38,775 bases of DNA, taken from the IMG/VR virus record IMGVR_UViG_3300037486_000048, positions 1 through 38,775 of that record; one strand, 5' to 3'. Shown here piece after piece: positions 6,994 through 38,775 of the stretch (its first letter is position 1; every line of letters begins with the position of its first letter). A program made the translations under genes and the position numbers. The notes beneath the pieces were generated by a model. It saw only the letters and a list, made by a program, of their open reading frames with translations. It was not told where the DNA came from and did no database searches. The DNA is from a virus.

Positions 6994-6995
6994 GA

Positions 6996-9293: not shown

Positions 9294-9296
9294 CGA

Positions 9297-9533: not shown

Positions 9534-9535
9534 CT

Positions 9536-10002: not shown

Positions 10003-10046
10003 CGTCTTGCCCTCCAGCACCAGCCCCGGCGTGATTGCCGAGGCAC

Positions 10047-10068
10047 GCGGGCGAGCCTCGCGGCCCGC
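10047..10068 (-). other. GC-rich inverted repeat in an 80-base spacer
   Basis: GCGGGC (10047-10052) pairs with GCCCGC (10063-10068) around a 10-base loop. The spacer 10003-10082 holds no gene. It resembles the hairpins in other early spacers and lacks a T-run. Confidence 0.4.
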
Positions 10069-10082
10069 CTGCGTACGTGCTA

Positions 10083-10337: not shown

Positions 10338-10347
10338 CGCGTCCTCC

Positions 10348-10617: not shown

Positions 10618-10624
10618 GCCCTCC

Positions 10625-10876
10625 TTAGTCCCACCCGTAGCACCCGCAGTAGTACAGGTCCGTCTCCTTCTCGGGACGGTGCGCGAAGAACGCCAGCGTC
10701 ACCTTGCTGGGCACCTTCGTGTCACAGTACGTGCACTCCGCCATCCGACCAACGAGGTCGGGAGCGGCCACTTCGATCTCGGCGTCTGGCGTCATTCCGT
10801 AGTGGACTGCGCAGACCGGCTTACCGTTGCAGATTCCGTTCGCGGCGCAACCGCACTTCATCATCGTCGCACTCAT
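10625..10876 (-). CDS. Cys-rich putative zinc-binding protein (83 aa)
   Basis: The protein starts MSATMMKCGCAANGICNGKP and overlaps the upstream stop (ATGA). Two Cys clusters are visible: KCGCAANGICNGKPVCAVH at the N-terminus, and ECTYCDTKVPS with YYCGCYGWD at the C-terminus, enough ligands for two zinc sites. Such small proteins are common in phage early regions and often bind host proteins; the target is unknown. Confidence 0.65.
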   Translation of the reverse strand: MSATMMKCGCAANGICNGKPVCAVHYGMTPDAEIEVAAPDLVGRMAECTYCDTKVPSKVTLAFFAHRPEKETDLYYCGCYGWD

Positions 10877-11043
10877 GCGGCCACCTCCTTCTTGATCTGC
10901 TCACCCAACCATTCGGCATGACTTCGTAGCCACTTGGCCTCGGCAACCTTTCCGATCTTCTCGCGGTAGTCTGCGCTTCTAAGCGCCTTCTGAATGATCG
11001 CGGCATACGCCACGCGATCCTCCAACGTATGGCTCGTCGTCAT
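10873..11043 (-). CDS. Small helical protein (56 aa)
   Basis: The ATG at 11043 (MTTSHTLEDRVAYAAIIQKA) follows GAGGAGGG. The product is one or two amphipathic helices (SADYREKIGKVAEAKWLRSH, WLGEQIKKEVAA). An upstream in-frame ATG at 11157 would overlap the previous gene and a hairpin and lacks a ribosome site. The function is unknown. Confidence 0.6.
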   Translation of the reverse strand: MTTSHTLEDRVAYAAIIQKALRSADYREKIGKVAEAKWLRSHAEWLGEQIKKEVAA

Positions 11044-11081
11044 CGTACTGCCCTCCTCTTGGCTTCCCATCTTCATGCGCG

Positions 11082-11096
11082 TCGGGTGCCACCCGA
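11082..11096 (-). other. Short perfect hairpin in the spacer after the first early gene
   Basis: TCGGGT, GCC and ACCCGA form a 6-bp stem with a 3-base loop in the 91-base spacer 11044-11134. No T-run follows. The rest of the spacer holds only the next gene's ribosome site. Confidence 0.4.
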
Positions 11097-11134
11097 ACGC
11101 GGACGCGCGAGCGTGTGCCCGCGCGTTTCGGGAA

Positions 11135-11551
11135 CTAACTGGCGACGTACTCACCACGGACGAGCTTGAAGCCCGGCGTCGTCACGACCGTGCGGCCCTT
11201 GCCGTCCACCCCGGTGTAGATGCCCTGGACGTTGCCCTTGCTCGTGCGGACCTTGATCACGCGTCCGACCGTCACGTCCTCGGGCGGCGTCGCCTTCGGA
11301 GCCTTCACCTTCGGGGCCTTCTCGATCTTGGCGAGCGTTCCGCGCCGCACCGCGTCGATGTAGGCGATCTTCAGCATCGCCGCGCCCTGCTTCGGCGTCA
11401 GGGGCTGGAGACCTTCCAGCGCCGCCTGGATCTTGTGGAACGCTGCTTCGCGCGTGGCGCTGTTGACCGCCATCGTCTCGGTGACCGCCATCGCCTTTGC
11501 CTCAACCTTGCGATCCCGCGCCTCAGCCTTCGCACTACTCTTCGGATTCAT
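11135..11551 (-). CDS. First early gene: basic protein with SH3/KOW-like C-terminus (138 aa)
   Basis: The ATG at 11551 (MNPKSSAKAEARDRKVEAKA) follows GGGAGGG. A Lys/Ala-rich N-terminus is followed by a helical middle (ATREAAFHKIQAALEGLQPL) and a basic linker. The C-terminal ~45 residues (VGRVIKVRTSKGNVQGIYTG, then GRTVVTTPGFKLVRGEYVAS) have strand spacing like a small SH3 or KOW barrel. It is the promoter-proximal gene of the early operon. Nucleic-acid or RNA-polymerase binding is a guess from charge and fold. Confidence 0.65.
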   Translation of the reverse strand: MNPKSSAKAEARDRKVEAKAMAVTETMAVNSATREAAFHKIQAALEGLQPLTPKQGAAMLKIAYIDAVRRGTLAKIEKAPKVKAPKATPPEDVTVGRVIKVRTSKGNVQGIYTGVDGKGRTVVTTPGFKLVRGEYVAS

Positions 11552-11985
11552 CGTGCCCTCCCAGTTCAGAACGCCTCGTACCTTGGCCTGCCTCGTCAGC
11601 GCCGGGCGGCCATCCCCGGCCGTACGGTCGCTCTTTAATGAGCGGACCGTTTCGGCTACGCGGTGTCCTCGCGAGCGGTCGCCGTCGTTCGCGCCGTTCG
11701 CTCTCCCGCGCCGTTTCGTTTCTTGCTTTACCCGACTGGATTGCCCGGTCTACGTTGCCCGCTCTTGAATGGGGTTCGCTTCGTCTCGCGGAGTCGTTAG
11801 CGGATCACGCGCCTGGGTTCGCTGTCGGTCGTCGGCGTTTCGACTCGGTCCGGTGTGGGCTGGTCGGTGTGGGCTGTCCCACCCGATGTCCTCCGGTCCT
11901 GGCTCGGGCTGCCCTTGGCTGGCCCCTTGCCCTGGTCCCTGCGCCGTTCGTCTTTCAAAGATCAACTAGGCTTTATCTATCGGCA

Positions 11986-11991
11986 ATTATA
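11986..11991 (-). promoter_or_regulatory. Candidate early promoter, perfect -10 TATAAT
   Basis: On the minus strand TATAAT matches the sigma-70 -10 consensus exactly, in the most AT-rich part of the region. No good -35 lies at 17 bases; TTGTTC at 12011-12016 (19-base spacer) is the nearest, 3 of 6. A weak -35 with inverted repeats just upstream suggests an activated promoter. Transcription would run towards the first early gene, about 430 bases downstream. Confidence 0.45.
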
Positions 11992-12032
11992 GCCTATCCT
12001 GAACCCCTCGGAACAACTATTTTCGGCATGGT

Positions 12033-12062
12033 CCTAAGTGGCGATCCTGCAATCACTTATGG
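12033..12062. promoter_or_regulatory. Inverted repeat CCTAAGTG / CACTTATGG, candidate operator 1
   Basis: CCTAAGTG (12033-12040) faces CACTTATGG (12054-12062), an imperfect copy of the repeat at 12118-12146. Its near edge is about 42 bases upstream of the -10 element, an activator-like position. Confidence 0.5.
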
Positions 12063-12117
12063 TTCTTTCGCTGGATGGCGTTTCGTGGGCGTACTTGGCC
12101 GGGATGGTCCCAAGTGA

Positions 12118-12146
12118 CCTAAGTGACGTAGTTGGAATCACTTAGG
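12118..12146. promoter_or_regulatory. Inverted repeat CCTAAGTGA / TCACTTAGG, candidate operator 2
   Basis: CCTAAGTGA (12118-12126) and TCACTTAGG (12138-12146) are perfect 9-bp inverted arms with an 11-base spacer. A further half-site, CCAAGTGACC, overlaps it at 12110-12119. The same half-site AAGTG(A) occurs five times between 12033 and 12146. Confidence 0.55.
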
Positions 12147-12179
12147 AAGCCCGGTGTAGGGCCACCTGGGGGCGCGAGA

Positions 12180-12200
12180 AACCCGCACTAGCAGCGGGTT
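12180..12200 (-). terminator. Hairpin after the last late gene, possible terminator
   Basis: On the minus strand AACCCGC, TGCTAGT and GCGGGTT form a 7-bp stem with a 7-base loop, 27 bases beyond the stop of the papain-fold hydrolase. It is followed by TCTC, so the T-run is short and termination may be weak. Its position at the end of the late gene block supports the call. Confidence 0.45.
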
Positions 12201-12226
12201 CCAGCACGCTAGGGGGCGGGAAACGC

Positions 12227-12829
12227 CTACGAAGCCTGGGCGAATCGGGCCGGGGTGTTGGCGTACGCGGCCGGGGGCGTCCGCTCTACGTTCAGCTTCT
12301 GTCCGCCCTGCGTGAACAGGACGTCGAACGGCGGCGGCTGGCCTGCGGATTCCTTCGCCTTTCGCGCGGCGTCGAAGCACGCGCGAACGCCGACGGAGCA
12401 GACCATCAGGTTCCCGCCGAAGTCGAAGATGCGGTGGTAGAAGCCGACGCCGTATCCGAGGATCTCGTTCAGCGCGATGTCGAGCAGCTGCCCCACGTCG
12501 TAGCTGGTCCCGATGAGCTTGTGCGCCGCCTCGTACATCACCAGCACGTCTTGGCTGTCGAGCGGGAACGTCGGACGCCAGACACGGAAGTCCCTCTGCT
12601 GCACGCGGTCCCACGTTTCCCACTTCGTGTGTGGGTACGTCACGGACAAGATCCGGGCTGGTCCGAAGTAGAGCATCGAGTGGGTATCTCGCCAGTCGGC
12701 GTACCCGACGTGCCGCTGGTGCGCCTGGATGCAACCTTGCGGCACGGATTCGAACGGGTGAGTCGCCTGCCACCAGATCGACCGCTTGGGCGGGCGCGTG
12801 TTGATGACGTCACCGGTGGATAGGGTCAT
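12227..12829 (-). CDS. Permuted papain-fold hydrolase (YiiX / NlpC-P60-like)
   Basis: The ATG at 12829 (MTLSTGDVINTRPPKRSIWW) follows GGAGGG, giving 200 residues. The motif order fits permuted papain-fold amidases or peptidases: an initial GDVI strand, His in DTHSMLYFG, then RVWRP, the helix HKLIGTSYDVGQLLDIALNE, and Cys late in LMVCSVGVRACFDA. His before Cys is the hallmark of the permuted type. Substrates of the family include peptidoglycan and lipids; a role in lysis or wall passage is inference. It is the last late gene before the regulatory region. Confidence 0.65.
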   Translation of the reverse strand: MTLSTGDVINTRPPKRSIWWQATHPFESVPQGCIQAHQRHVGYADWRDTHSMLYFGPARILSVTYPHTKWETWDRVQQRDFRVWRPTFPLDSQDVLVMYEAAHKLIGTSYDVGQLLDIALNEILGYGVGFYHRIFDFGGNLMVCSVGVRACFDAARKAKESAGQPPPFDVLFTQGGQKLNVERTPPAAYANTPARFAQAS

Positions 12830-12961
12830 GGTAGCCCTCCTGGGATCATTAGGTGCCCGTGGCTGCACGATCCCGGCCAATGGGTATGTAGCCATAGCCC
12901 GGCGTGAGATCGTGCGCCTGTGAGCCTCCAGTCGCTTCTCGGTCCATGGCGCGGGCATGGG

Positions 12962-13198
12962 TCAGTCCGCGGATAGACGGTTCCCCTGGCATTCTGCTAC
13001 GCGCTGTGCCGCAGCCGCCCTCGCCCGCTGGACTTCGGTGTACCCGTACGTCCCGGTTGCTCCGCCAACGGCCAGGATCAGCACGGCGAGGATGTGCGGA
13101 ATCCCCGGCACCTGCTCAGCCACGATCCCCGCCGCTGTCACCACGATTCCCCAGAACGTCTTCTTCTGCCAGAAGTGCTTCTTGTCCACCGGATTCAT
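12962..13198 (-). CDS. Small membrane protein, holin candidate (78 aa)
   Basis: A basic N-terminus (MNPVDKKHFWQKKTFWG) is followed by two hydrophobic segments (about residues 15-29 and 33-53: WGIVVTAAGIVAEQV and HILAVLILAVGGATGTYG) and a charged, Ala/Arg-rich C-terminus. Two short spans with charged ends are typical of small holins or spanin-type accessory proteins. The endolysin is 6 kb upstream, so the assignment rests on topology alone; the coiled-coil membrane protein next to the endolysin is a competing holin candidate. Confidence 0.55.
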   Translation of the reverse strand: MNPVDKKHFWQKKTFWGIVVTAAGIVAEQVPGIPHILAVLILAVGGATGTYGYTEVQRARAAAAQRVAECQGNRLSAD

Positions 13199-13208
13199 CG
13201 ACTATCTC

Positions 13209-13544
13209 CTATCTGGTGATGTCCTCGGTTACGGTCATCGTACCCTTGACGTACGTCTTGACCACGGCCGTCGGGAATGTGATCTGAACGTCGTACTGGT
13301 AGGCGCGGGGTTCGAGGTCGATGATCAGCGGACCGACGCGAAACACGCCATTGACTTCGTCGACGACGGTGATCCCGCTACCATCCGATAGCTCCAGGGC
13401 CACCACCGCATCCCGATTCCTGCGAAACTGACACAGGATGGAAGCTCCAGACAGATCCAGCGGAGAACCGTTTACCTCAACGGTGAACTGCACGCCGTCG
13501 TACGTGTCTCCGCTGACTGTGGAAAAGTCGTACGTCGTTGCCAT
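13209..13544 (-). CDS. Possible internally started BppU-like domain (111 aa)
   Basis: Inside the repeat protein, in the same frame, an ATG at 13544 (MATTYDFSTVSGDTYDGVQF) follows GGAGGACGGAG, as good a ribosome site as any in the window. It would make the C-terminal domain as a free 111-residue protein, which looks complete: VEVNGSPLDLSGASILCQFR, then RVGPLIIDLEPRAYQYDVQI. The join between the repeats and the domain may be a recent fusion that kept the old start. Confidence 0.4.
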   Translation of the reverse strand: MATTYDFSTVSGDTYDGVQFTVEVNGSPLDLSGASILCQFRRNRDAVVALELSDGSGITVVDEVNGVFRVGPLIIDLEPRAYQYDVQITFPTAVVKTYVKGTMTVTEDITR

Positions 13545-14600
13545 CTCCGTCCTCCGATCAATCGCCACCAACTCGCAGCCGCCGACGATAGATACGTCCA
13601 CATCGACCACGGTCTCTGTGGCGAGTACGTCTATCGCATCCGCCACCTCGACGATGATGACGTCGACCTCATCGCCAGCAGCCGGGACAGTCCCAGATGC
13701 AGAGATGACGCTGATTGTAACGCACGATCCAATCCCGTACCACGTGGTCGGAAGCGTGCCAGAGGCCGAGATCACACTGGTGGTTTCACACGAACCAGCA
13801 CCACTCCATACGGCATGAACTACCGTGCCCGTCGCGGCAATCACGGAAGTGGTTGCCACTACCCCGCTTCCATCAACCGTGCCCAGTAGCGACCCGCTCG
13901 CAGAAATCGACGAGACGGTCTCTATGGACCCGGCTCCACTCCACGTCGCGTGCGCGACTGTACCGGCCGCACCTAGAACAGCCTCGGACTCAATCGCACC
14001 CGAGCCGCTCCAGGTCGCATGAGTCACGGTTCCTGCACCCGCAAGCACGGATGCAGTCTCAATCGCACCAGCGCCAGACCAGACGGCGTGCGTTACAGTC
14101 CCGGCACCTGCGATGACTGATTCAGTCTCTGCCGCGCCCGATCCGCTCCAAACCGCGTGTGTGACGGTCCCAGTGCCAGCGACTACCGACTCCGTTTCGA
14201 CTGCGCCAGCGCCAGACCAGACGGCATGCGTGACCGTCCCCGCACCCGCTACCACGGCCTCGGTCTCTACCGCGCCCGCGCCCGACCACGTGGCGTGCAC
14301 CACGGTCCCGGTGGCCGCGATCACGGCGGCTGTCACCACAGCCCCGACGCCGCTCCAGACGGCGTGCGTCAGCGTTCCCGCGCCCGCCAGGACGGACTCG
14401 GTGACTACGGACCCGACGCCAGAGTGCACGGTGCCAGCCGCGCCCTCGTTCCCGCAGAAGCACCCGCCCGTGTACCGAGATCCAACGTCCAGGCCGTACA
14501 GGTCGATGCTGGCCTTGGCTACGGTCTGGCAGAAGCACCCGCCCGTGTAGCGCGAGCCTACGTCCAGGGTCAGGAGATCGGTTTGCGTGGGCAGCGCCAT
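13209..14600 (-). CDS. Repeat-rich virion protein with BppU-like C-terminal domain
   Basis: A 463-residue protein. The N-terminus has two copies of LDVGSRYTGGCFC. From about residue 54 to 305 it is made of roughly eleven tandem units of about 23 residues, typified by GAGTVTHAVWSGAGAVETES, rich in Gly, Ala, Ser, Thr and Val and probably beta-structured. The last ~110 residues (from MATTYDFSTVSGDTYDGVQF) resemble the N-terminal immunoglobulin-like domain of phage baseplate/receptor-binding proteins. An internal ATG with strong GGAGG precedes this domain. It sits among fibre-like genes, so a tail appendage or spacer role is likely. Confidence 0.75.
   Translation of the reverse strand: MALPTQTDLLTLDVGSRYTGGCFCQTVAKASIDLYGLDVGSRYTGGCFCGNEGAAGTVHSGVGSVVTESVLAGAGTLTHAVWSGVGAVVTAAVIAATGTVVHATWSGAGAVETEAVVAGAGTVTHAVWSGAGAVETESVVAGTGTVTHAVWSGSGAAETESVIAGAGTVTHAVWSGAGAIETASVLAGAGTVTHATWSGSGAIESEAVLGAAGTVAHATWSGAGSIETVSSISASGSLLGTVDGSGVVATTSVIAATGTVVHAVWSGAGSCETTSVISASGTLPTTWYGIGSCVTISVISASGTVPAAGDEVDVIIVEVADAIDVLATETVVDVDVSIVGGCELVAIDRRTEMATTYDFSTVSGDTYDGVQFTVEVNGSPLDLSGASILCQFRRNRDAVVALELSDGSGITVVDEVNGVFRVGPLIIDLEPRAYQYDVQITFPTAVVKTYVKGTMTVTEDITR
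13690..14450 (-). repeat. Tandem ~69-bp coding repeats (23-residue units)
   Basis: About eleven units encode variants of GTVTHAVWSGAGAVETESVV. Units nearest the protein N-terminus and middle are most alike at the DNA level; those near the end (TTWYGIGSCVTISVISASGT) have diverged, which suggests growth by unequal exchange. Confidence 0.75.
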
Positions 14601-14603
14601 CGG

Positions 14604-16610
14604 CTATGCCTGCGTTATGGACAGATCATCGACGTACACGGAGTAGGTCGTGCCCCCGTAGGCCCAGGCTTCGATCTGCACGACACCCGCCTCGGTCGGG
14701 GTGAAGCTGATTGAAAGCTGCTCCCAGGTGTCGGCATCGGCTGTCACGGAGTCCGTCACATCGGTCGCCACGCCGTCTATCTGCATACCTCGGCAGACCA
14801 GCTTGCCGGTGAGACCCGTGTTCGACCGCTGCATCCAGCAAGTCACGGTCACTTCGGCATCGGCGTTTACCGGGAAGGAGCCGAGAAGGAATGAGAACGG
14901 CGTCGCGGCCACACAATAAGTGCTGCTGGTCGGTTGAATCTTCCAAGAGATCCCGCTCGCGGTGTGCCGCACCGAGGTCTCGGAATGGACCTGACCATAC
15001 GCCGCGTAGATGTGATGGGTTCCAATGACCCCGGCCTCGTCCTGCGAGATGATGCGAGTTCTATTGTACCCCGGCCCGGCTCCGGCATCGAGCGTGACGA
15101 ACACTGCCTCGCTGATCGTGGAGTTGCGAAACATCTGGTTGCCGAGGCATGTACCGAAAAGGAACGCCGATGTACCACTGTTGTAAATAGTAACATCGTC
15201 GTACTCGTTCTGCCCACATCCCGTGCCAAAGGCCGCACCGTACAACGCGCTCGACTGCGCAGAGATATTCTTGTAGCGACTGTGCGTGGATCGCACCGCG
15301 ATGTTCGCCGATCCATTCCCGTCGCACTTGAGATCGGTGAAGGTGGACTCGCCGCAGAACGATGACCATATCCCATAGCTACGGTTGGCGCACAGCCACA
15401 GCGTGTCCAGCACTAGCCCGATATGAACGTATGTACCATATCCGATGATGATACCGGCATTCGAGTTGCCGTTCCCGTGGCACTCGTTTACCTCCGAGAA
15501 ATGACACGCGCTAGAAATGAAGATCCCATTTTGAAAGCGCACGCAGCCGATCTTCTCCAGGTGGATGAATCCGAGCATATGCCAGCGAATGCCAGCACCG
15601 TAACCATTCTGCCCGTCCAGCCACGTCTCTCCGTCCTGCGTGGACATATCCGTGCGGTTCCAGCCACCGGAGTAGAGAACCGGACTTGCAGATGTACCGG
15701 CCTCTTGGATGGTGCCCTTGTAGTTGTCGTCCGTAGCGGTTGGCATATCTAGCGGCTTGATCGTCTCGCGCTTGTAGGTCGTTACGGATTCGCTCGTGCC
15801 GACGTACTTGCCATAGACGTTATACGTCGCATCCGGTCCGCAGTCGAGCGTGACCGTAGTACCCAGGATGGTCTTGATCGTGTACCACGTTTCGCCCGCC
15901 GCGTTTTTCCCGATGAGGCTGGTCAAGGTGAGCGAGTCAGCCGCCGACGACACCTTGCACGCGATGATGTGGTCGAGGTGGAGCACGGCAGCGCCAGTAT
16001 CGGAAGCGCAGTAGAGAGCCACGCTGTTGATGTCGGTCGTCATGTCGGAGCCAACGGAGACGGATATGGGTATCCACCTACCAGAGCTTGCGGGTCCGAG
16101 CGCCGGGATGACGGCCGTGTAGACAGGCGTGTCTCCAGCCGTATCGCTACACAGCTTTAGTTCCAGTTGCCCCGCCGTGATCGTGCCCGTGACGCACTTG
16201 ATCCACATGGAGACCTGCTGGTAGCCATCCAATGTGAGCGTTCCGGTTGCGAAGTATGCGACCTTACCAGTTGTGAACGAGGCATCTATTGTGATGACCT
16301 CAGTAGCAGTTCCCTCCTTGCGCGTAGTGTTGGTGCCCCTGGAGTTTGGAGCTACCGCCGTCCATGCAGAATCGCAATCGCATATCTCGGCGGTGACGGC
16401 AGTAGTCAGTTCAATGGTGGAAGTGTTCGTTGTCCACGTTGCCGCCTGCCCGAGACTTGTAGGCGCCAGAGACCCCATGATGCGAACAGTGTCACCGGGC
16501 GCGACGCGCGCCGCCGTTATGCCACTCGTGATGGTCTTGACGCGGTTCGCGTAGGACGTTCCATCGTTCGCGTCGTTCCCGCCCTCAAAGTCAACATAGA
16601 GCGTTGGCAT
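14604..16610 (-). CDS. Beta-helix tail spike-like protein (668 aa)
   Basis: The N-terminus (MPTLYVDFEGGNDANDGTSY, then VKTITSGITAARVAPGDTVR) is the usual opening of pectate-lyase-type right-handed beta-helix proteins. The middle third has the coil-by-coil pattern (NECHGNGNSNAGIIIGYGTY, STFTDLKCDGNGSANIAVRS, NEYDDVTIYNSGTSAFLFGT). Two jelly-roll-like parts are plausible: at about residues 140-215 and at the C-terminus (SWKIQPTSS to YSVYVDDLSITQA), the latter like a carbohydrate-binding module. A receptor-binding or polysaccharide-degrading virion protein is likely. Catalytic residues are not identifiable by eye. Its ATG is four bases after... the upstream stop overlaps by one base (TAATG). Confidence 0.75.
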   Translation of the reverse strand: MPTLYVDFEGGNDANDGTSYANRVKTITSGITAARVAPGDTVRIMGSLAPTSLGQAATWTTNTSTIELTTAVTAEICDCDSAWTAVAPNSRGTNTTRKEGTATEVITIDASFTTGKVAYFATGTLTLDGYQQVSMWIKCVTGTITAGQLELKLCSDTAGDTPVYTAVIPALGPASSGRWIPISVSVGSDMTTDINSVALYCASDTGAAVLHLDHIIACKVSSAADSLTLTSLIGKNAAGETWYTIKTILGTTVTLDCGPDATYNVYGKYVGTSESVTTYKRETIKPLDMPTATDDNYKGTIQEAGTSASPVLYSGGWNRTDMSTQDGETWLDGQNGYGAGIRWHMLGFIHLEKIGCVRFQNGIFISSACHFSEVNECHGNGNSNAGIIIGYGTYVHIGLVLDTLWLCANRSYGIWSSFCGESTFTDLKCDGNGSANIAVRSTHSRYKNISAQSSALYGAAFGTGCGQNEYDDVTIYNSGTSAFLFGTCLGNQMFRNSTISEAVFVTLDAGAGPGYNRTRIISQDEAGVIGTHHIYAAYGQVHSETSVRHTASGISWKIQPTSSTYCVAATPFSFLLGSFPVNADAEVTVTCWMQRSNTGLTGKLVCRGMQIDGVATDVTDSVTADADTWEQLSISFTPTEAGVVQIEAWAYGGTTYSVYVDDLSITQA

Positions 16611-31246: not shown

Positions 31247-31663
31247 CTAACTCGTCGTCGCCGTCCGATGGATTCGGAAGTTGATCGACACCTCCGGTCT
31301 TCCGTTCTCGTCCGGCCCTATGTCAAGGATTCCCCCGGCCTGCCAGATTCCGACGTACCTTGATCCCTCGATCTCCACCTCGTTCGGCCCGTGCGTGTCG
31401 CGCAGGAAGTCCGCGATGGCCTTCGCCCTCTGCCAGATGGTCGGATACGATCCGCGCATCCCGCGCACCCGCACCTGGACCGTCGGGTAGTCCGTCTCCA
31501 GGGAAGGCTCCGGTTCAGGATCGTTCCCTCCAGAGTCCATTACCGACACACATACATCGGGCTTCTCGGGCATGTCGAAGGCGAACAGGTCCGTCCCGAG
31601 CGTCAGCCCAAGCGCGCTGTCGCCGTCCAGCATGTCCGCTATGTCTTGCGCTGGACTCCTCAT
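31247..31663 (-). CDS. Tail terminator-like / minor capsid protein (138 aa)
   Basis: Features are a start helix (SPAQDIADMLDGDSALGLTL), strands with YPTVQVRVRGMRGSYPTIWQ, a helix RAKAIADFLRD, and a final RPEVSINFRIHRT strand. This layout matches phage tail terminators (gpU-like), which cap the finished tube. The ATG overlaps the HK97 gp10-like gene's stop (ATGA). Confidence 0.75.
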   Translation of the reverse strand: MRSPAQDIADMLDGDSALGLTLGTDLFAFDMPEKPDVCVSVMDSGGNDPEPEPSLETDYPTVQVRVRGMRGSYPTIWQRAKAIADFLRDTHGPNEVEIEGSRYVGIWQAGGILDIGPDENGRPEVSINFRIHRTATTS

Positions 31664-32148
31664 TTCACCTTGGCCTCCGCCCTGATGATCGCCAGAAGTT
31701 CGTGACGCGTTCGCTTCAGGGCTTCCTCAAGAAACTTCCATTGCGTCGGCGGCCTATGTCCCTGCTCTCCCGGTAGACGCTTGCCGATGGCGCGTTGTCG
31801 GTACATGCCAGACTTGGATCTCCTGGTTCCCCACTTCCGACTCGCCCACTTGCTCACCGGTATAACGATCTTCCACGTACGGACCTTCACCTCGTGGACG
31901 TAGATCGCGTAGTCAGACTCGTACCAGATCACTCCCCAGATGATACCCGCCGTGCTAAACACGCGCCGCCGCATGGACCTGCGGAGGTTCCCGGTGTCGA
32001 CGGGCGTCAGCGGAAGGGCGACCTGACTCACGCGCAGCAGGGCCTTCGACATTCCAGACCTCGACCGATTCTTGATCCCGGCGATCTCTCGGCTGAGGTT
32101 CGCCACGACCTCGCTCGATCCTGCTAGGTTCAAGATGCCTTCGGCCAT
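31660..32148 (-). CDS. HK97 gp10-like neck / tail completion protein (162 aa)
   Basis: LLRVSQVALPLTPVDTGNLR, then RSMRRRVF and WYESDYAIYVHEVKVR, are the signature of gp10/gpZ-like proteins, with the PVDTGNLR turn and the YAxYVHE strand. A basic insertion (SRKWGTRRSKSGMYRQRA) and a closing helix (WKFLEEALKRTRHELLAIIR) follow. It joins head and tail at the neck. Confidence 0.8.
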   Translation of the reverse strand: MAEGILNLAGSSEVVANLSREIAGIKNRSRSGMSKALLRVSQVALPLTPVDTGNLRRSMRRRVFSTAGIIWGVIWYESDYAIYVHEVKVRTWKIVIPVSKWASRKWGTRRSKSGMYRQRAIGKRLPGEQGHRPPTQWKFLEEALKRTRHELLAIIRAEAKVK

Positions 32149-32514
32149 CTACAACCACGCCTTCCGCATCGTCGTCTTGCCGTCAAGTGACGTGGACTTC
32201 GCCCACCCACGGATCTCCTTCGCTCCATCCAGCGCGAACGGGTTGGTCTTCTCTGCAGGTGATAGGTCCGCCAGCCTACCAAGGTAGACATACCCACCCA
32301 GCGACAGATCCTGATTGGGGTACAGAACAGCGGAGGAGATGGCTTGCCGTCCGGCGACGTCGACGAACTCGTTCTGCGAGTCCTCCCATCGGACCCGGAT
32401 CTCGACGGGATCGTCGAACGTGCGTCCGCCAAGTCCATCGGCCACCGGAGTTCCCCAGTAGACGATGACAGACTTGGCGAATCCGCCAGCAAAGACCTGT
32501 GACCGGAGCGTCAT
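32149..32514 (-). CDS. Head closure / stopper-like neck protein (121 aa)
   Basis: The protein is beta-rich: FAKSVIVYWGTPVADGLGGR, TFDDPVEIRVRWEDSQNEFV and LYPNQDLSLGGYVYLGRLAD. This is the pattern of small head-closure proteins between connector and gp10-like genes. The ATG overlaps the connector stop (ATGA). Assignment is mainly by position and strand pattern. Confidence 0.65.
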   Translation of the reverse strand: MTLRSQVFAGGFAKSVIVYWGTPVADGLGGRTFDDPVEIRVRWEDSQNEFVDVAGRQAISSAVLYPNQDLSLGGYVYLGRLADLSPAEKTNPFALDGAKEIRGWAKSTSLDGKTTMRKAWL

Positions 32515-32891
32515 GTCGCGTCTTCCGCCTCAGTGTACGGACCGAACGCCGCGATGTCCCCGGCCACGGAGCTAGTGGCAAGTTGGGCCACGACGCCAGA
32601 GATGTCAAGTTCCATCAGCGCGTGGCCGTACGGGTTCACCTTCATGTTGGCGTACGTCGCGCTGGCGTCGCCCACGTTCTCGGACGCTACCATCGGATCT
32701 CTGGCCGTAGTTAGGAGATAGGCCGTCCACAGCTTCTCGGCCACGACCAGCTCGTCATCCGACAGGCCGCTCGCTGACAGGAACCGGGTCGTCATCTTGT
32801 TCCCGATGTCGAGCCAGGGAGTGATCTGCTGCTCCGTCAACTGCGTCCCGGTCAATGCGATAACCGCAGCCGCCGTCGTCCTGTATGCCAT
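32511..32891 (-). CDS. Head-tail connector, gp6-like (126 aa)
   Basis: The protein starts MAYRTTAAAVIALTGTQLTE, continues QITPWLDIGNKMTTRFLSAS, then DDELVVAEKLWTAYLLTTAR and TYANMKVNPYGHALMELDIS. The helical layout, with an assigned-helix WLAA-like segment, is typical of gp6-like adaptors that sit under the portal. The ribosome site (GGAGG) and the first 137 bases lie inside the preceding glycosyltransferase frame. Confidence 0.75.
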   Translation of the reverse strand: MAYRTTAAAVIALTGTQLTEQQITPWLDIGNKMTTRFLSASGLSDDELVVAEKLWTAYLLTTARDPMVASENVGDASATYANMKVNPYGHALMELDISGVVAQLATSSVAGDIAAFGPYTEAEDAT

Positions 32892-33582
32892 CTTCCACCT
32901 CCGGTTCTATCGTTTCGTGATCCCACCTGCCGCCACGCCGACGCCTCTCTGCCTGCATCTCAACGAACGCTCCACGGTTTCCCCGCCCAAACCACTCCTC
33001 CCTCTGCCCGACGTGCCACAGGACGAGTGGAAGTTCACGCACTCGCTTCCAGCGCCGCATGAACCCGTTGTCATAGTTTCCAGCATGGGTCCATTGGGTT
33101 TCAATCAGCGGTTCGCCCACCAGGGCGGGATCTTGTGAATGGAACAGTTGGAAGAAGCCAACGCCAGGAACGTCATACCTCATCGGACGTAGCCCGGTCC
33201 TATCAACGTCCTTCGTAGACCTGCATTGCACGCGGCTGGCACCCCACAGGCATCCAGGCTTGGGTGACGCGTTTTCGACGACAGACTTCCACCCAACGGG
33301 AGGGACTACGTCGGCGTCGAAGAACAGCACCCAGTCGGTCCAGGGCACCAACTTGCGTCCCTCCTCTATCGCGCGCCCCTTGTTGAATGCAGCTCCATCC
33401 TCGTAGAAGGCCGTCGTCGCGTACAGGCGAGCCTTCTGGCGGACCGAGACCAGGGCAGCGGTGTCGCGATCTCCGGGTCTAGTAACGACGATCAGGCTAT
33501 CGAGGCCGTCGAGCCAACGGTCCACGCCTACTCCAAGCATGTCGGCGTAGTCCACGCACACCGTCAAGCCGTGGATCGTCAT
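32755..33582 (-). CDS. GT-A-fold glycosyltransferase-like protein (275 aa)
   Basis: GAAFNKGRAIEEGRKLVPWT is followed by WVLFFDADVVPPVGW, where Asp89-Ala-Asp91 is the DxD metal site of GT-A enzymes that use nucleotide sugars. The rest (GVGFFQLFHSQDPALVGEPL, YDNGFMRRWKRVRELPLVLW) fits GT2-type proteins. The last ~45 residues overlap the connector gene in another frame for 137 bases and look like read-through rather than domain. It is the last gene of the cassette. Confidence 0.75.
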   Translation of the reverse strand: MTIHGLTVCVDYADMLGVGVDRWLDGLDSLIVVTRPGDRDTAALVSVRQKARLYATTAFYEDGAAFNKGRAIEEGRKLVPWTDWVLFFDADVVPPVGWKSVVENASPKPGCLWGASRVQCRSTKDVDRTGLRPMRYDVPGVGFFQLFHSQDPALVGEPLIETQWTHAGNYDNGFMRRWKRVRELPLVLWHVGQREEWFGRGNRGAFVEMQAERRRRGGRWDHETIEPEVEDGIQDDGGCGYRIDRDAVDGAADHSLARHREQDDDPVPVSERPVG

Positions 33583-33584: not shown

Positions 33585-34352
33585 TCAGATCCTGCCGGTC
33601 GCCAGGAAGTCCATCGAGTCCATTTCCTCGACGCTCACGTTTCCATCAGAGTCGACCACTTCTACGGAATCCTCTCCGAAGTGACTCACTTGCCAGTTCC
33701 ACCCATGCGTTGCGGCCACGATAAGTCCATCAGACCGTCGCCTGAAGCTGGATACACCACCGGCCATCAAGTCCAGCGATTGCTTGCATCGGAGCGGAGT
33801 CTGGCAGGCTGTGATTGCCGGATCGTACTTGTAGATGTACAGGACCTTGTTGATGTGTGCCTCTGTCAGCGGTGCGTACGCCGCTGCGATAGTCTTATAC
33901 CAGAACACGTCTACGCCGTACCATGCCGGAAGCCACGGAACCGTCTTGGCCCAGTCCGCTCTCCACGCACAGAAGTGGTTGGCACACATGATCTCGCCGC
34001 CAGTCACCTTCACCCCATCCTCAACTCCGACGTGGAACGTCCACACCTTCTCGGCGTCGATCCTCTTGGCAGCGAACGTGGCCACGGAAGGCCCACTCTC
34101 CAGCAGTCTAAGGATAGATTCCACGTAGTCGGGGGCAATCACGTCGTCGTCGTCGACCGATGATATGTATTCCCCTCCCGCTAGACCCATCAACTTCGCC
34201 ATCTTCGTACCGTAAGGAACCGTTCCGTCATCCTCGTCTACGATATGTTCCACGGATCTTCCCCGAGACTGGCGCGCGATTTCTTGGAACAGTCCCGCGC
34301 GCATGGACGCTCGATTCTTCAGCGTCGGAGTGATTAGAGACAGCACCGGCAT
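33585..34352 (-). CDS. GT2-family glycosyltransferase (255 aa)
   Basis: The ATG at 34352 (MPVLSLITPTLKNRASMRAG) follows GGAGG and the upstream TAA by two bases. VLSLITPTLKNR is the first strand and loop of GT2 enzymes; GEYISSVDDDDVIAPDYVES around residues 60-80 carries the Asp cluster (Asp67-70) that binds the nucleotide sugar and metal. WYGVDVFWYKTIAAAY is the acceptor-side segment. A C-terminal extension (SVEVVDSDGNVSVEEMDSMD) is acidic. It probably transfers one sugar to a growing glycan. Confidence 0.8.
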   Translation of the reverse strand: MPVLSLITPTLKNRASMRAGLFQEIARQSRGRSVEHIVDEDDGTVPYGTKMAKLMGLAGGEYISSVDDDDVIAPDYVESILRLLESGPSVATFAAKRIDAEKVWTFHVGVEDGVKVTGGEIMCANHFCAWRADWAKTVPWLPAWYGVDVFWYKTIAAAYAPLTEAHINKVLYIYKYDPAITACQTPLRCKQSLDLMAGGVSSFRRRSDGLIVAATHGWNWQVSHFGEDSVEVVDSDGNVSVEEMDSMDFLATGRI

Positions 34353-34354: not shown

Positions 34355-35314
34355 TTACCAACCTCCCATGTACGCGTCCTCCACCTCGCAATTGAGCCTG
34401 TGACCCATCGCTCGGTAGTCGTACACTTCCAGGCATGATCTAGAGTACGCCATGACGTCCTCCTCATGCCATCCGTCGGCGATCTTCTTGGCCTCACGAA
34501 CGATGTCTTCCGCGCGCCAGTTCTGATCAAATCGACGTAGTGCACCGTCGATTGCCGGAAGGACATCCGCTTCTGGAAGGTTCGTGACTGGTATGCAGCC
34601 AACCGCCACCGATTCAACGATCTTGCGGAGTGCGAATCCGTATTTGCTCGCCGTCGCGATGTGCGCGCGATACTCCGCCAGCGCGCGCAGGTAGTCTTCC
34701 GTCCTGCAACCTCGGTTGCCATATCCGGGGTGACGAAGCACGTCGATTCCCAAGCGCGACGCTGCCTTGACTATGGCCGTACGCGCGGGATATATCTCCT
34801 CTCCGATGGCTCCAGATACTACGACTGACTTGCGATGGTCCGTAGCCGGGATAGCCCTAACCAAGTCCGCATCAACCGTGTGCCACGTCCTGATCTTCGG
34901 ATACGCACTCATCCACGGCGCACAAGCGTGAATCTGGTCTTCGTTGTAGTAGACGATTGCGATGTCTGCTGCTACCTCGCGCAGGAACGACTGGTGGTAT
35001 GCCTGGAACGTTGCAGCATCCTTCACGACTGCGAGCTTCAGGATGTTCTTTCGACGCGCCAGTTCCCCAAGATCCTTGAATCCAACGTCCTTGCGGAACG
35101 AGATGCGAGAACCCGGGTCCCAGTCGCGCTTGTCGTGGACAATCACGACGTCGGGACTATGCCGCTCCAGGAGTTCAGGAACGCTGTTGCATCCGTCACC
35201 GAATCCGACTCCAGCCACTGTCCATCCAGCGTGTTCCAGTCCTCGCTGAAGCTGATCTCCCTCGTCTGTCATGTGACGGCGGTAGTCCACGTTCCCTAGC
35301 ATCAGTCCACGCAT
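34355..35314 (-). CDS. GT-B / CgeB-like glycosyltransferase (319 aa)
   Basis: The ATG at 35314 (MRGLMLGNVDYRRHMTDEGD) follows TTTGAGGA. The N-half shows a Rossmann pattern (DVVIVHDKRDWDPGSRI, RKNILKLAVVKDAATFQAYH, ADIAIVYYNEDQIHACAPWM). The C-half has SVVVSGAIGEEIYPARTAIV, GIDVLRHPGYGNRGCRTEDY, LAEYRAHIATASKYGFALRK and VESVAVGCIPVTNL. The last stretch matches the donor-binding E-x7-E-type region of GT-B enzymes of the GT1/GT4 or spore CgeB kind. The transferred sugar is unknown. Confidence 0.7.
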   Translation of the reverse strand: MRGLMLGNVDYRRHMTDEGDQLQRGLEHAGWTVAGVGFGDGCNSVPELLERHSPDVVIVHDKRDWDPGSRISFRKDVGFKDLGELARRKNILKLAVVKDAATFQAYHQSFLREVAADIAIVYYNEDQIHACAPWMSAYPKIRTWHTVDADLVRAIPATDHRKSVVVSGAIGEEIYPARTAIVKAASRLGIDVLRHPGYGNRGCRTEDYLRALAEYRAHIATASKYGFALRKIVESVAVGCIPVTNLPEADVLPAIDGALRRFDQNWRAEDIVREAKKIADGWHEEDVMAYSRSCLEVYDYRAMGHRLNCEVEDAYMGGW

Positions 35315-35321: not shown

Positions 35322-36023
35322 TCAAACGTGTAGCACGCCAACGCCGCACGACGTGTTGCCCCACACTCTGTTCCACGCCTCATGAGACGTAGCTGCGGGG
35401 ATTCCAGCCCTCTCTCGCGCGCGAGCCTCTAGACCCTCGGACACATCCACGATGGACTCGCTATCATACCTAGCGGCGAGCGTGTTGAATACGGCACGCG
35501 GGTTGATCTTGTCCACCACGTCGTGAATGAACACCAATCCGCCCTTGCGCACGAACGGGGAGTAGATGGCGAAGTCCTTCCCGGTCGACGCCTTGTCGCC
35601 GTCAATGAACAGGCAGTCGATGGGATCTCCGGCCAGGAAGTTCTTCACGTCGGCGATGACTGAGCCGTCCATACTACTACCAGCGCGGCACATGATGGAC
35701 ACGTAGGGGAACGCTCCACGAAATGCCGAGGCGTACGGAACTCCGCGCAGTTCAATCGCTATGGCTTTGCGTACTGTCGGAAGGCACTTGATCCAATGGT
35801 AGAATCCACCACCCTTGTCGGCACCGATCTCCATGACGACCTTCGGCGCTAAGGCGCGTGCAGTCATCATCATCCGAGACAGTTCCGCCTTACGCTGCAA
35901 TGGGAACAGAACGGAGTCGTCGAATACCTCCGAGTACGCATTCTCTCCCCTGGGGCGATCACCTTCGGTTGCCAGCAATCTACCCCAATGTTCCATCAGG
36001 TTTGCCGGAAGCGGTGCATCCAT
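35322..36023 (-). CDS. Class I SAM-dependent methyltransferase (233 aa)
   Basis: KVVMEIGADKGGGFYHWIKC (about residues 60-79) is SAM-binding motif I. KAIAIELRG is motif II with the acidic residue, and PIDCLFIDGDKASTGKDFAI followed by GGLVFIHDVV matches the Methyltransf_24 type. Its position between the radical SAM and glycosyltransferase genes suggests methylation of a sugar hydroxyl. A nucleic-acid substrate is less likely, as there is no DNA-methylase motif such as DPPY or NPPF. Confidence 0.8.
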   Translation of the reverse strand: MDAPLPANLMEHWGRLLATEGDRPRGENAYSEVFDDSVLFPLQRKAELSRMMMTARALAPKVVMEIGADKGGGFYHWIKCLPTVRKAIAIELRGVPYASAFRGAFPYVSIMCRAGSSMDGSVIADVKNFLAGDPIDCLFIDGDKASTGKDFAIYSPFVRKGGLVFIHDVVDKINPRAVFNTLAARYDSESIVDVSEGLEARARERAGIPAATSHEAWNRVWGNTSCGVGVLHV

Positions 36024-36024: not shown

Positions 36025-36891
36025 CTACGACCTCAACCTCATGTAGTCCGTCGACTCCTTCACCTTGGGACTGAGACCAGTGATTAGGTTGCACACCACA
36101 TCGTCGGGAACGAGCAGTTTCCACGATGCACTTACGTCATATACTCCGTCCCGGTCTAGGTGTCCTCGCATGCAGAACGGCACTCCACAGCCAGCATCGC
36201 AGCACGCATCTACCTGATGCTGGAAGGCGTCCATTCCATTCTTCCACCATCCAGGTTCTGCGGGGATTCCATTGTCTCCGCCCAGTAGGTCGTCGATTGC
36301 TGCTGCTACCTCGCAGAAGTACGCTCTCGGCCTTCCGTCGAACCCCTCGACTATTGCGGAGGACCACTTGCGGTTGATTGGACACTTCTCTCGGTACGCG
36401 ACCCACCTTTCCTCGTCGAGTCCAACGTCACGCCAGTCAACAAGGATTGGCGTGTGCCACGATGGGCCGTCCGCACTTCCGAGGATGACTTTCCCTGGCG
36501 TCCACCGTTCCATCGCATCGGATACTTCGCGATTCCCGTGCGCGTTTAGATTCATCCTTCCCGTGGGATAGAACGTGCGTCGCACCAGTTCGCCGTACTT
36601 GCCGAAGCTACTTGCCCATAGGCCACGCCGACTCTGCTGCGGAATCTCCTCGCTCATAATGCGGCACAGTTCCGAGAAGTCTGGATGTACGCACGGATTC
36701 CCACCGAACGCCGCAACGACTCCGGGCCAGTCTTTCGAGGCGTAGACTGCCTCTCGAAAGCACTCCACAGACATGTGTGATGGACGCGAACGAAGCTGAA
36801 GCAACTGCGTGCAGTTCGAACACGATCCCTCGCACGCATGAGTCACCACCACCTGGATCGTGTCATTCCGCTTCTGCGTGGGTGCCAGCAT
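36025..36891 (-). CDS. Radical SAM enzyme (288 aa)
   Basis: VVVTHACEGSCSNCTQLLQL holds Cys20, Cys24 and Cys27 in the CxxxCxxC motif that binds the 4Fe-4S cluster for radical SAM chemistry. AFGGNPCVHPDF (residues 62-73) is the GGE(x)P-type SAM-binding motif with Asn for Glu. Extra Cys late in the protein (EKCPINRK, AYFCEVAAAI, DACCDAGCGVPFCMRG) could hold a second, SPASM-like cluster. It lies between a glycosyltransferase and a methyltransferase, 1-5 bases from each, so a sugar-modifying step such as epimerisation, dehydration or methylation is a reasonable inference. Confidence 0.85.
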   Translation of the reverse strand: MLAPTQKRNDTIQVVVTHACEGSCSNCTQLLQLRSRPSHMSVECFREAVYASKDWPGVVAAFGGNPCVHPDFSELCRIMSEEIPQQSRRGLWASSFGKYGELVRRTFYPTGRMNLNAHGNREVSDAMERWTPGKVILGSADGPSWHTPILVDWRDVGLDEERWVAYREKCPINRKWSSAIVEGFDGRPRAYFCEVAAAIDDLLGGDNGIPAEPGWWKNGMDAFQHQVDACCDAGCGVPFCMRGHLDRDGVYDVSASWKLLVPDDVVCNLITGLSPKVKESTDYMRLRS

Positions 36892-36895: not shown

Positions 36896-37564
36896 TCACC
36901 GTCCTATCCACCTAGCCGATACGTCGCGCGGACGAGGATGTCCGTGGAAGCATACGACTACGGCGTCGTCTGGAGGCTGGCAGAGTTTCTTCGATCTGAT
37001 GTGGTACTTATAGCTATACACTCCGTCCTCGACGGTGAACCCGATACGGGCTTTCGCATGTCTCCACGTCCAGTCTCCGTCACCCGCATACGTCTGCCCG
37101 TTGCTCGGTTTCATTGGGATGCCGTGACGCCTGCTGTCAAACTTTGCCCCCGAGACGGCCTCGCAGAACGACCGGTACAGGTAGCGCATCTCACCTGCCC
37201 ATCCCAGGATTCCGCTCTCGCCGTGGTCCGGTCGATAGAAGTCGTGGAGCATGAGCAGGTCGCCACCAGCGTTCTTGGCCTTCATGCCAAGCGCATCGAT
37301 GTTTCCGACGATCACGGTATCCAGGTCGAAGTACAGGACGGGACCGAGAAGGCGGTACACCTCCATCTTCGCCCACCATCCAGGCCAGTCGTGATTCAGG
37401 ATGGCGAAGTTAGAAATGATGCTAGAAACACCTACTGGATCATCTGTCAGGCAGGTGAATAGGTGGGGTAGCGTTAGGTTACGCTCGACTCCGCGAGCAA
37501 GTCGGGCTACGTCATCCGGCACGAAGTCTCCTCCGCTGCGAAGCACGCAGGTGACTGTCAGCAT
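36896..37564 (-). CDS. GT8-like glycosyltransferase (222 aa)
   Basis: The ATG at 37564 (MLTVTCVLRSGGDFVPDDVA) overlaps the TylF-type gene's end by seven bases; an upstream in-frame ATG at 37627 lacks support. LPHLFTCLTDD, WPGWWAKMEVYRLLGPVLYF and DLDTVIVGNID are the usual GT8-like text, with Asp80-Leu-Asp82 as the metal-binding DxD. TYAGDGDWTWRHAKARIGF is the acceptor side, and CFHGHPRP near the end is the HxGxxKP-like motif. It probably uses a UDP-sugar. Confidence 0.8.
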   Translation of the reverse strand: MLTVTCVLRSGGDFVPDDVARLARGVERNLTLPHLFTCLTDDPVGVSSIISNFAILNHDWPGWWAKMEVYRLLGPVLYFDLDTVIVGNIDALGMKAKNAGGDLLMLHDFYRPDHGESGILGWAGEMRYLYRSFCEAVSGAKFDSRRHGIPMKPSNGQTYAGDGDWTWRHAKARIGFTVEDGVYSYKYHIRSKKLCQPPDDAVVVCFHGHPRPRDVSARWIGR

Positions 37565-38130
37565 CGCACCTTCCTCAGAACGAGTTGGTTGTTGTCCAGT
37601 CTGCCCACGGACGCGAGTCCGGGGCACGTTGCGATGAACTCGTTGACTGCATCGGAGGCTCCGCCGTGTCCCAGGTCGAATACGTCGTCACAGACGATTA
37701 GGCCTTCCGGCACGGTTCTCTGGTAGCAGAACTCTAGGGCATCGATGGTCGGATCGTAGTGGTCTAGGTCCACGTACGAGAACACCAGGAGCAGGGTGGT
37801 CGCATCGGACAGAGACTCGGGGATGAATCCGGGCCAGAGTTTGTACGAGTCGTGCTTCAGGCGAGCAGTCATCAGGTCCCTGAATCTGTCCACTCCGCCG
37901 ACGCTGAACTTTCCACGCCAGTATGCGGTGGAATCCCTTGGGCCAGGATCGGCCATGCCAATGAACGAGTCGAAGGCGTGTGCCATACGGCTGTGCGCGA
38001 AAGCCCAGTTGGCTAGTACGGCGAACGTGTCGCCACGGTAGACTCCGAACTCGGCCACGTCGCCAGCCAGATGCTCTATCCTCGACAGGAGTCGCATCAG
38101 CTTGCCGACGTCCATCCTACCAGTTCCCAT
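37558..38130 (-). CDS. TylF-type O-methyltransferase (190 aa)
   Basis: GDVAEFGVYRGDTFAVLANW (residues 23-42) is motif I of the TylF/MycF family. AHAFDSFIGMADPGP, FSYVDLDHYDPTIDALEFCY and GLIVCDDVFDLGHGGASDAV complete it; the Asp residues bind magnesium and the acceptor. Known members methylate hydroxyls of sugars such as javose or mycinose on macrolides. The length is shorter than TylF itself, lacking much of its N-terminus, as usual in phage and polysaccharide clusters. It is first in the cassette, right after the tRNA. Confidence 0.8.
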   Translation of the reverse strand: MGTGRMDVGKLMRLLSRIEHLAGDVAEFGVYRGDTFAVLANWAFAHSRMAHAFDSFIGMADPGPRDSTAYWRGKFSVGGVDRFRDLMTARLKHDSYKLWPGFIPESLSDATTLLLVFSYVDLDHYDPTIDALEFCYQRTVPEGLIVCDDVFDLGHGGASDAVNEFIATCPGLASVGRLDNNQLVLRKVRC

Positions 38131-38156
38131 GGACCCTCTGCCTCACGGCCCGTGCT

Positions 38157-38228
38157 TTGCGGGGGCGGGAGTCGAACCCGCCACCAGCGGATTATGGGTC
38201 CGCTGCTCTACCGCTGAGCTACCCCGCG
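38157..38228 (-). tRNA. tRNA with CAU anticodon (Met; initiator-like acceptor stem)
   Basis: The 72-base cloverleaf has D stem GCTC/GAGC, anticodon stem GCGGA/TCCGC, T stem GCGGG/CCCGC and T loop TTCGACT. The anticodon is CAT (38194-38196). The acceptor CGCGGGG/CCCCGCA has a C1.A72 mismatch, the hallmark of bacterial initiator tRNA, and equals that of E. coli tRNA-fMet. Against initiator identity, the D stem has C11-G24 and the anticodon stem has only two of the three G-C pairs (A31-U39). Position 33 is C rather than U. CCA is not encoded. Ile2 (modified C34) is a further possibility. Confidence 0.9.
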
Positions 38229-38308
38229 ATGCCGGACCGGGCGCAGCGTGCGAACGGACGGACGCGCACGACTCATCCATTCCAAGATCCGCGCCCGATC
38301 CTCTACCT

Positions 38309-38527
38309 TCATCCATCGTCCCCCACCAACTCGTACTGATACACTTTGGCAATCCCCAGGAGTTTGGTCGTCTGCTCGGCGGTCGGATAGCATCGGATGG
38401 TCAATGTAACCACGGAATCGCCCTCGATGTGAAGGTCGATGGACCGCACCTCGGGCGGCAGTTGTAGCGGTGTCAGCGCGTCCTTGACCAGATCGAAGAT
38501 CGTATGTCCGACAACTGCATGCGACAC
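38309..38527 (-). CDS. Small hypothetical protein (72 aa)
   Basis: A GTG at 38527 (V/MSHAVVGHTIFDLVKDALTP) starts one base after the upstream stop. A helix is followed by two strands (VRSIDLHIEGDSVVTLTIRC) and a closing helix-strand (TKLLGIAKVYQYELVG), an alpha/beta layout. It lies between the Rossmann-like gene and the tRNA. The function is unknown. Confidence 0.6.
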   Translation of the reverse strand: MSHAVVGHTIFDLVKDALTPLQLPPEVRSIDLHIEGDSVVTLTIRCYPTAEQTTKLLGIAKVYQYELVGDDG

Positions 38528-38528: not shown

Positions 38529-38775
38529 TCACACCCCCTTTGACATCACGTCTGCCGGATCTACGATGGGCCAGACGGTGATCGCAGACCCAGGAGTAGC
38601 GTTGATGATCTCCAGTCCAAGCTCCTTGGCCTCTACCGCGACCTGCTGCATCGGCAGAAGGTGCTTATCGTACTCGGTGGTCATTTCGTCGTGGTAGTCG
38701 TGCCAGTTGTTCTTCCCGTCGACCTTCCTCATGTCGAAGCCAAGCAGAACGATCCGCTTCACACCGAGTAGGTAG
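38529..38775 (-). CDS. C-terminal part of a Rossmann-like phage protein ('norphogenetic' type), runs off the right edge
   Basis: The frame is open to the window edge (YLLGVKRIVLLGFDMRKVDG), so this is the end of a longer gene; a GTG at 38762 is an unlikely start. VLLGFDMRKVDGKNNWHDYH followed by LGLEIINATPGSAITVWPIV resembles the C-terminal half of phage proteins annotated 'norphogenetic', whose fold is near MptE/DUF115 and Maf-type proteins. Some relatives of that fold act in glycan transfer, which would suit the adjacent cassette, but this is weak inference. Confidence 0.55.
   Translation of the reverse strand, partial: YLLGVKRIVLLGFDMRKVDGKNNWHDYHDEMTTEYDKHLLPMQQVAVEAKELGLEIINATPGSAITVWPIVDPADVMSKGV

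Follow-up and report, generated by a model that had tools for sequence, protein, structure and literature searches.

What does a radical SAM protein do in a virus, in the midst of genes for glycosyltransferases? The question is raised by an IMG/VR virus record (IMGVR_UViG_3300037486_000048) of 38,775 bases without end repeats, analysed here over its whole length and called the window. At 36025-36891 the plus strand is interrupted by stops and the open reading frame lies on the minus strand only. Its product carries CxxxCxxC (Cys20/24/27) and GGNP (residues 63-66), motifs from which a sequence-only reading had proposed a radical SAM protein, with late cysteines that could hold a second cluster. 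The gene belongs to a minus-strand series, listed here in the order in which that strand is read:

38529..38774, minus strand: end of a sialyltransferase-like protein, cut by the window end (phrog_4603, E 8.9e-15)
38309-38527, minus strand: small ORF between the sialyltransferase-like end and tRNA-Met
38156-38229, minus strand: tRNA-Met (CAT), within the glycan module (Rfam tRNA, 62 bits)
37558..38130, minus strand: TylF-like methyltransferase (PF05711, E 2.7e-12)
36896..37564, minus strand: glycosyltransferase (phrog_1962, E 8.5e-30)
36025..36891, minus strand: predicted Twitch-type radical SAM protein, 288 aa, single intact ORF
35322..36023, minus strand: Methyltransf_24 / CmcI-like methyltransferase, cluster MT6 (E 9e-06)
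34355..35314, minus strand: GT-B fold glycosyltransferase, cluster GTB2 (model, best Z 19.2)
33585..34352, minus strand: glycosyltransferase family 2 (phrog_8858, E 1.2e-20)
32755..33582, minus strand: probable GT-A glycosyltransferase, family GTA1 (PF13704 only, E 0.069)
31247..32148, minus strand: neck/head-tail connector genes at 31660-32148 (phrog_5, 5.2e-10) and 31247-31663 (phrog_2595, 2.8e-17)

The genes of this module abut or slightly overlap, in an operon-like manner, and the connector genes lie directly downstream. Some reading frames extend beyond the likely start: that of the phrog_1962 glycosyltransferase reaches a GTG at 37627 (likely ATG start at 37564, by inspection), that of GTB2 reaches 35383 (likely start 35314) and that of the phrog_8858 enzyme 34436 (likely start 34352). 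GTB2 has no family match; its model (pLDDT 95.3) is matched structurally by GT-B glycosyltransferases. GTA1 was assigned from weak Pfam matches (E ~0.07) and a DxD-like motif recognised by eye. The glycosyltransferase cluster noticed in the sequence-only reading is thus real, with two PHROG matches (8.5e-30 and 1.2e-20), one GT-B fold and two methyltransferases.

The radical SAM protein of the window scored 18 bits against Pfam Radical_SAM, below the cut-off of 29.5; NCBIfam gave radical SAM matches that were all sub-threshold, PHROGs contained no family for it, and a PDB sequence search with this single protein found nothing useful. Among 53 aligned relatives, 47 matched Pfam Radical_SAM at E<=0.01, and any one PHROG matched at most 12 of them, under the names Fe-S oxidoreductase or radical SAM. 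Although Pfam is weak on the window protein itself, the matches of its relatives and a clear predicted fold confirm the observation. AlphaFold2, run on the 53-row alignment, gave a model with a mean pLDDT of 94.7 and a pTM of 0.91 that aligns with radical SAM enzymes along its entire length and shows both the barrel and the auxiliary cysteine layout. Foldseek against the PDB returned 17 matches at E<=0.001, those listed being radical SAM enzymes; ranks 1-5 were SpeY and BtrN, and the epimerase EpeE, DesII and BlsE (names taken from PDB titles) followed below them. In VIA-align the model superposed on SpeY with a Z of 17.5 (249 residues, rmsd 3.4 Å) and on BtrN with a Z of 12.7 (207 residues, rmsd 3.9 Å).

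Along the model, Cys170 is followed by a hairpin (178-182/188-191), Cys193, a helix (220-231), and then Cys231 and Cys235. This order is the BtrN arrangement outlined in a passage of PMC6231123, with one cysteine before the hairpin, one after it and two after the next helix, and it therefore indicates a Twitch domain layout. A SPASM motif, according to the same source, comprises seven cysteines for two auxiliary clusters; that motif is absent here, and the family has just four invariant late cysteines (103-row set). We favour Twitch over SPASM because SpeY and BtrN outrank the SPASM enzymes in the fold match. Judged from the model, the window protein is almost certainly a Twitch radical SAM enzyme.

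These features also bear on the idea, raised in the sequence-only reading, that the enzyme modifies a peptide of a virion protein, as SPASM or RiPP-like enzymes would. Such enzymes do belong to the same fold family (PqqE Z 10.5, rmsd 6.0 Å; SuiB Z 10.4; SPASM enzymes from 10.5 down), and flagellin and virion proteins are encoded near the gene at some loci. Yet the protein has four rather than seven late cysteines; its first barrel strand begins at residue 11, so that the ~10 residues upstream in the model are too few for a domain of peptide recognition at the N-terminus; and the enzymes found beside or fused to its relatives are glycosyltransferases and methyltransferases, the fusion partners being glycosyltransferases and one methyltransferase. 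We consider a peptide substrate very improbable. Two more specific classes were rejected on the same N-terminus: a B12-dependent radical SAM enzyme, as a barrel that starts at residue 11 is preceded by no cobalamin-binding domain, and a RiPP maturase with an RRE, as ~10 residues hold no recognition domain.

Relatives proved numerous in uncultivated viruses. A hand-made DNA pattern for FGGNPxxHP, scanned on IMG/VR, gave 109 stretches, of which 82 encode relatives at E<1e-15, and a profile-guided IMG/VR scan found relatives encoded in 145 of 155 candidate stretches, the best 80 of these 145 being fetched; IMG/VR scans with automatically chosen peptides of the single window protein gave no relatives. 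In a collection of 50,697 phage records, tblastn with the window protein produced four weak matches, none a convincing relative, and queries with a TQGSN-clade relative, GTB2 and GTA1 had no match at E<=0.001; plasmid records had none at E<=0.01. The cultured-phage searches rest on these four representative queries and do not establish absence for every clade. The GTDB set contributed 13 loci among 94 pattern stretches. Two cultivable bacteria, Beijerinckia mobilis (L114) and Methylosinus (L115), have the gene on the chromosome. In the class of the Beijerinckia mobilis genome it is rare, being carried by 2 of 385 genomes drawn, this one included. The family thus looks almost confined to uncultivated viruses and a few bacteria. 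In the tree, the radical SAM gene on a contig of a planctomycete metagenome-assembled genome (L122) is separated only by short branches (0.07 and 0.044) from the one on virus contig L103, for which reason the planctomycete contig may itself be viral.

Conservation was tallied on a nonredundant set of 103 rows, from which rows had been dropped if they fell short of 200 aa, broke the length limits or shared more than 90% identity with a kept row; each cluster cysteine position is covered by 101-103 rows. A loss of the CxxxCxxC cysteines in relatives, which would have spoken against a radical SAM protein, did not occur: Cys20 (101/101), Cys24 (101/101) and Cys27 (102/102) are present in every covering row. 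Four of the late cysteines, seen earlier as able to hold a second cluster, are equally invariant (Cys170 103/103, Cys193 102/102, Cys231 101/101, Cys235 101/101) and make up a putative auxiliary-cluster site, while N114, N116, H118, H146, W176 and S177 occur in all 103 rows. The search patterns required F62-P66, H69 and P70, and those of the GTDB and profile-guided scans additionally FCE at ~192-194, so C193 and E194 were partly selected; the other cluster cysteines and the N/H residues are free of this selection. Cys230 is confined to the window's clade. In a quick tree of 77 rows we distinguished three main groups: the window's clade (15 virus rows, support 99), a group of mostly alphaproteobacterial records, and the virus-dominated TQGSN group (50 rows). 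Many of the IMG/VR members gained in the profile-guided scan are similar to the bacterial group.

The surroundings of the relatives point to glycans. HMMs were built from clusters of the neighbours of radical SAM genes and run on all loci. Of 67 nonredundant viral loci, one of them that of the window, 60 have a glycosyltransferase or methyltransferase family near the radical SAM gene (any glycosyltransferase 52, any methyltransferase 43, both 35). GTA1 is the commonest neighbour (43 loci), followed by MT3 (32), GT-B2 (30), GT4 (14) and MT6 (8), and 154 of 155 such neighbouring genes share the strand of the radical SAM gene. Neighbour cluster 11, which is methyltransferase-like, raised the combined count from 59/67 to 60/67 by its inclusion; cluster 16, once a glycosyltransferase candidate, is a major head protein in PHROGs and stands outside the counts. 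The tallied families were found in none of 27 chance pattern-match stretches, a control that is partly circular because the HMMs were derived from the neighbourhoods tested; it shows that these families are not generic phage genes and is not a fair enrichment. Frequencies were lower elsewhere: within 3 kb, the 26 rows new from the profile-guided scan, a third set of relatives, have a tallied glycosyltransferase family in 1 case and a methyltransferase in 11, and 2 of 13 loci from bacterial records match the neighbour HMMs.

At 11 loci the radical SAM domain is fused to a partner in a single ORF, ten times with a glycosyltransferase and once with a methyltransferase. The partner is an N-terminal Exostosin_GT47 domain at L116, L154, L156, L158 and L162, an N-terminal GT2 at L004 and L197, a C-terminal GT2 at L117 and L183, a C-terminal Methyltransf_24 at L094, and a C-terminal GTA1 at L025 (a match to our own neighbour HMM). 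The count leaves out L118 and L119, whose C-terminal extensions look FkbM-like (that of L118 having no Pfam match), as well as L120 and L127, which resemble radical SAM-GT2 fusions, the Pfam scan having covered other loci. Several architectures, with partners at both ends, suggest a pathway shared with glycosyltransferases. Of the two directions, sugar or peptide modification, in which the neighbours had earlier been taken to point, it is therefore the sugar that neighbours and fusions uphold; they lend no support to the peptide. It is highly likely that the radical SAM protein acts in the making of a glycan and, put more narrowly, probable that it is a Twitch enzyme whose substrate is a sugar in a glycan made by the virus.

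Further genes of this kind accompany individual loci. Sulfotransferase-like genes lie beside the radical SAM gene at L108, L097, L042, L051, L073 and L024, the representative at L042 matching Pfam Sulfotransfer_3 at E 0.02, below the cut-off, and LicD-like genes occur at L013, L029 and L078. Going by these assignments, the decorating enzymes differ between modules.

We thus describe a large uncharacterised radical SAM family, present in many unrelated-looking uncultivated viruses and adjoining or fused to glycosyltransferases. An open-access literature search found no paper on the radical SAM family of the window protein; what is new is the family itself and its wiring to glycosyltransferases.

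Which reaction would such an enzyme catalyse? SpeY (PDB 7wzv, 7wzx, 7x0b), the best whole-length fold match, has the single-barrel and Twitch architecture in common with the window protein and acts on a sugar-like antibiotic, spectinomycin; it is, however, only ~10% identical, and the setting in which it is known is the biosynthesis of an antibiotic and not a virus. BtrN (2-deoxy-scyllo-inosamine dehydrogenase, PDB 4m7t) has the same four-Cys Twitch layout, but shares 13% identity, uses an aminocyclitol as substrate and, to our knowledge, has no glycosyltransferase fusion. QueE (7-carboxy-7-deazaguanine synthase) has the GGNP stretch in common with the window protein and is the top match of the family profile (E 0.099, not significant, barrel part only), a match that stops before the Twitch part; QueE is not known to have an auxiliary-cluster domain. 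BtrN comes second in the profile search (E 0.12) and SpeY (7wzv) reaches E 0.29, both over the barrel start only and not significant. According to a passage of PMC9012708, BtrN oxidises an alcohol of the aminocyclitol: the 5'-deoxyadenosyl radical abstracts hydrogen from the alcohol carbon, and the second electron probably passes to the four-Cys auxiliary cluster. Judged by fold, this reaction offers the best mechanistic template, but a likeness at 10-13% identity does not settle the chemistry.

On this template, the most likely reading is C-H radical chemistry in which an alcohol of a glycan sugar is oxidised to a ketone, a reaction and a substrate that we infer. A putative [4Fe-4S] cluster at Cys20/24/27 would cleave SAM, and the resulting 5'-deoxyadenosyl radical would abstract a hydrogen from a hydroxyl-bearing carbon of the sugar, either in a nucleotide sugar or in the growing glycan. 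H118, H146 and E194 are candidates for the invariant polar barrel residue that would take up the proton, and the second electron would pass to a presumed auxiliary [4Fe-4S] cluster, leaving a keto-sugar. The neighbouring methyltransferases and glycosyltransferases could then decorate and extend this product, and the finished glycan would be placed on virion proteins. The assignment of dehydrogenase chemistry is tentative, and we put it slightly short of even.

An enzyme of the same class in the same setting might instead perform other sugar chemistry, such as epimerisation, deoxygenation, decarboxylation or C-C bond making. Fold alone cannot tell the reaction, EpeE, DesII and BlsE do appear in the Foldseek list, and the SkfB paper (PMC6231123) remarks in one passage that function in the Twitch/SPASM group is hard to predict and does not follow sequence. 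These enzymes rank below SpeY and BtrN, however, and the two dehydrogenases are clearly ahead. Epimerases of the EpeE/NeoN type need a conserved extra cysteine that returns the hydrogen. The PDB titles for EpeE name a C223A mutant, and no such donor was seen in the 103 rows, where the commonest other cysteine, Cys76, is present in 93; a Cys-donor epimerase is disfavoured because there is no eighth invariant cysteine. Taken together, we hold reactions other than oxidation to be improbable.

Given the place of the family beside glycosyltransferases and its fusions to them, these viruses probably alter by radical chemistry a sugar that they build, and would make chemically unusual sugars instead of merely attaching those of the host. 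Since its genetic context is clear, this Twitch family also allows the role of Twitch/SPASM auxiliary clusters to be tested on a novel type of substrate. The GT47-rSAM, rSAM-GT2 and rSAM-methyltransferase fusions lend themselves to such tests, because in each the partner domain gives a clue to the substrate.

As for the carrier of the glycan, a portal, head, head-tail adaptor or tail-fibre gene is found in 12 of 15 fetched stretches of the window's clade, mostly less than 3 kb away. The same structural genes are present in 17 of the 67 viral loci overall and in 1 of 27 controls, so a virion target is not general. At four of these loci (L071, L007, L110 and L054) a collagen-like tail-fibre gene lies ~1 kb away. 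Virion glycosylation in phages is on record, as mentioned in PMC12619734 citing Freeman 2023. Because the module of the window's clade sits among head, neck and tail-fibre genes, virion proteins are the most likely carriers that we can name, a proposition that we regard as evenly balanced.

The module might alternatively act on the host surface or on viral DNA, in superinfection exclusion, serotype change or base hypermodification. Phage glycosyltransferases are described in a passage of PMC12619734 as decorating DNA, hosts and virions alike; most loci outside the window's clade are not beside recognised structural genes; and the many GT-B structures that tie as matches of GTB2 include the T4 DNA alpha-glucosyltransferase (Z 17.4). 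Against this stand the position of the window's clade module among portal, head, adaptor and tail-fibre genes (12/15 loci) and a bacterial relative that adjoins flagellin, a protein target. On balance we think a host or DNA target rather unlikely.

That relative comes from a Chromatiaceae metagenome-assembled genome (L124), where the radical SAM gene lies behind FliW, flagellin, MptE-like and TPR genes and is followed by GT2, GT2, Methyltransf_24 and GT2. MptE-like denotes the Maf-type domain of flagellin glycosyltransferases; the whole region, 2936-14873 of this locus, contains two flagellin-like stretches. Since the L124 copy falls inside the virus-dominated group of the 77-row tree and stands beside flagellin, its placement suggests gene transfer and a setting of protein-linked glycans. 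A bolder version of the oxidation reading would have the virus family oxidise a ring carbon in place, on sugars already attached to head, neck or tail-fibre proteins, leaving a reactive carbonyl, and the bacterium take up the gene for its flagellin. We judge this quite unlikely; were it true, the carbonyl would change adhesion, shield the virion or permit glycan cross-linking.

The sequence-only reading had also called radical SAM enzymes rare in phage structural regions. Rarity in phages at large would be overstated for the superfamily, because one environmental T4-like genome is reported, in a passage of PMC5332604, to have 12 radical SAM genes; in pelagimyophages, according to part of PMC7029224, a variable region contains cassettes of radical SAM genes. 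The nearest parallel in a cultured phage is a protein of Synechococcus phage S-SCSM2R (XQU50219.1), whose gene likewise lies within a glycosyltransferase cluster and whose late cysteines are present. It differs in matching the barrel start only (27% identity over 77 columns; 40 bits over 84 positions of the family HMM), is without the NxNxH and WW signature by eye, and is annotated as SkfB/NifB/PqqE-like. Around this gene (L002, 228461-236691) lie glycosyltransferases, an aminotransferase-like 'AHBA synthase' and an 'inosamine amidinotransferase', as if the cluster made an amino-cyclitol.

Some further observations concern the window itself. The tRNA-Met gene sits between the TylF-like methyltransferase and ORF 38309-38527. 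The C-terminal tail of the GTA1 gene overlaps ORF 32511-32891 by 137 bases (32755-32891), whereas gene ends in the rest of the module are compact; the overlap may be either a natural extension or a frameshift. Beyond the module, the window also holds genes for a tape measure protein, major tail protein, tail chaperone, central fibre J, connector and endolysin. Adjoining the tail genes, an ORF at 13209-14600 (minus strand, 463 aa) contains many near-copies of a 'GAGTVTHAVWSG'-like stretch.
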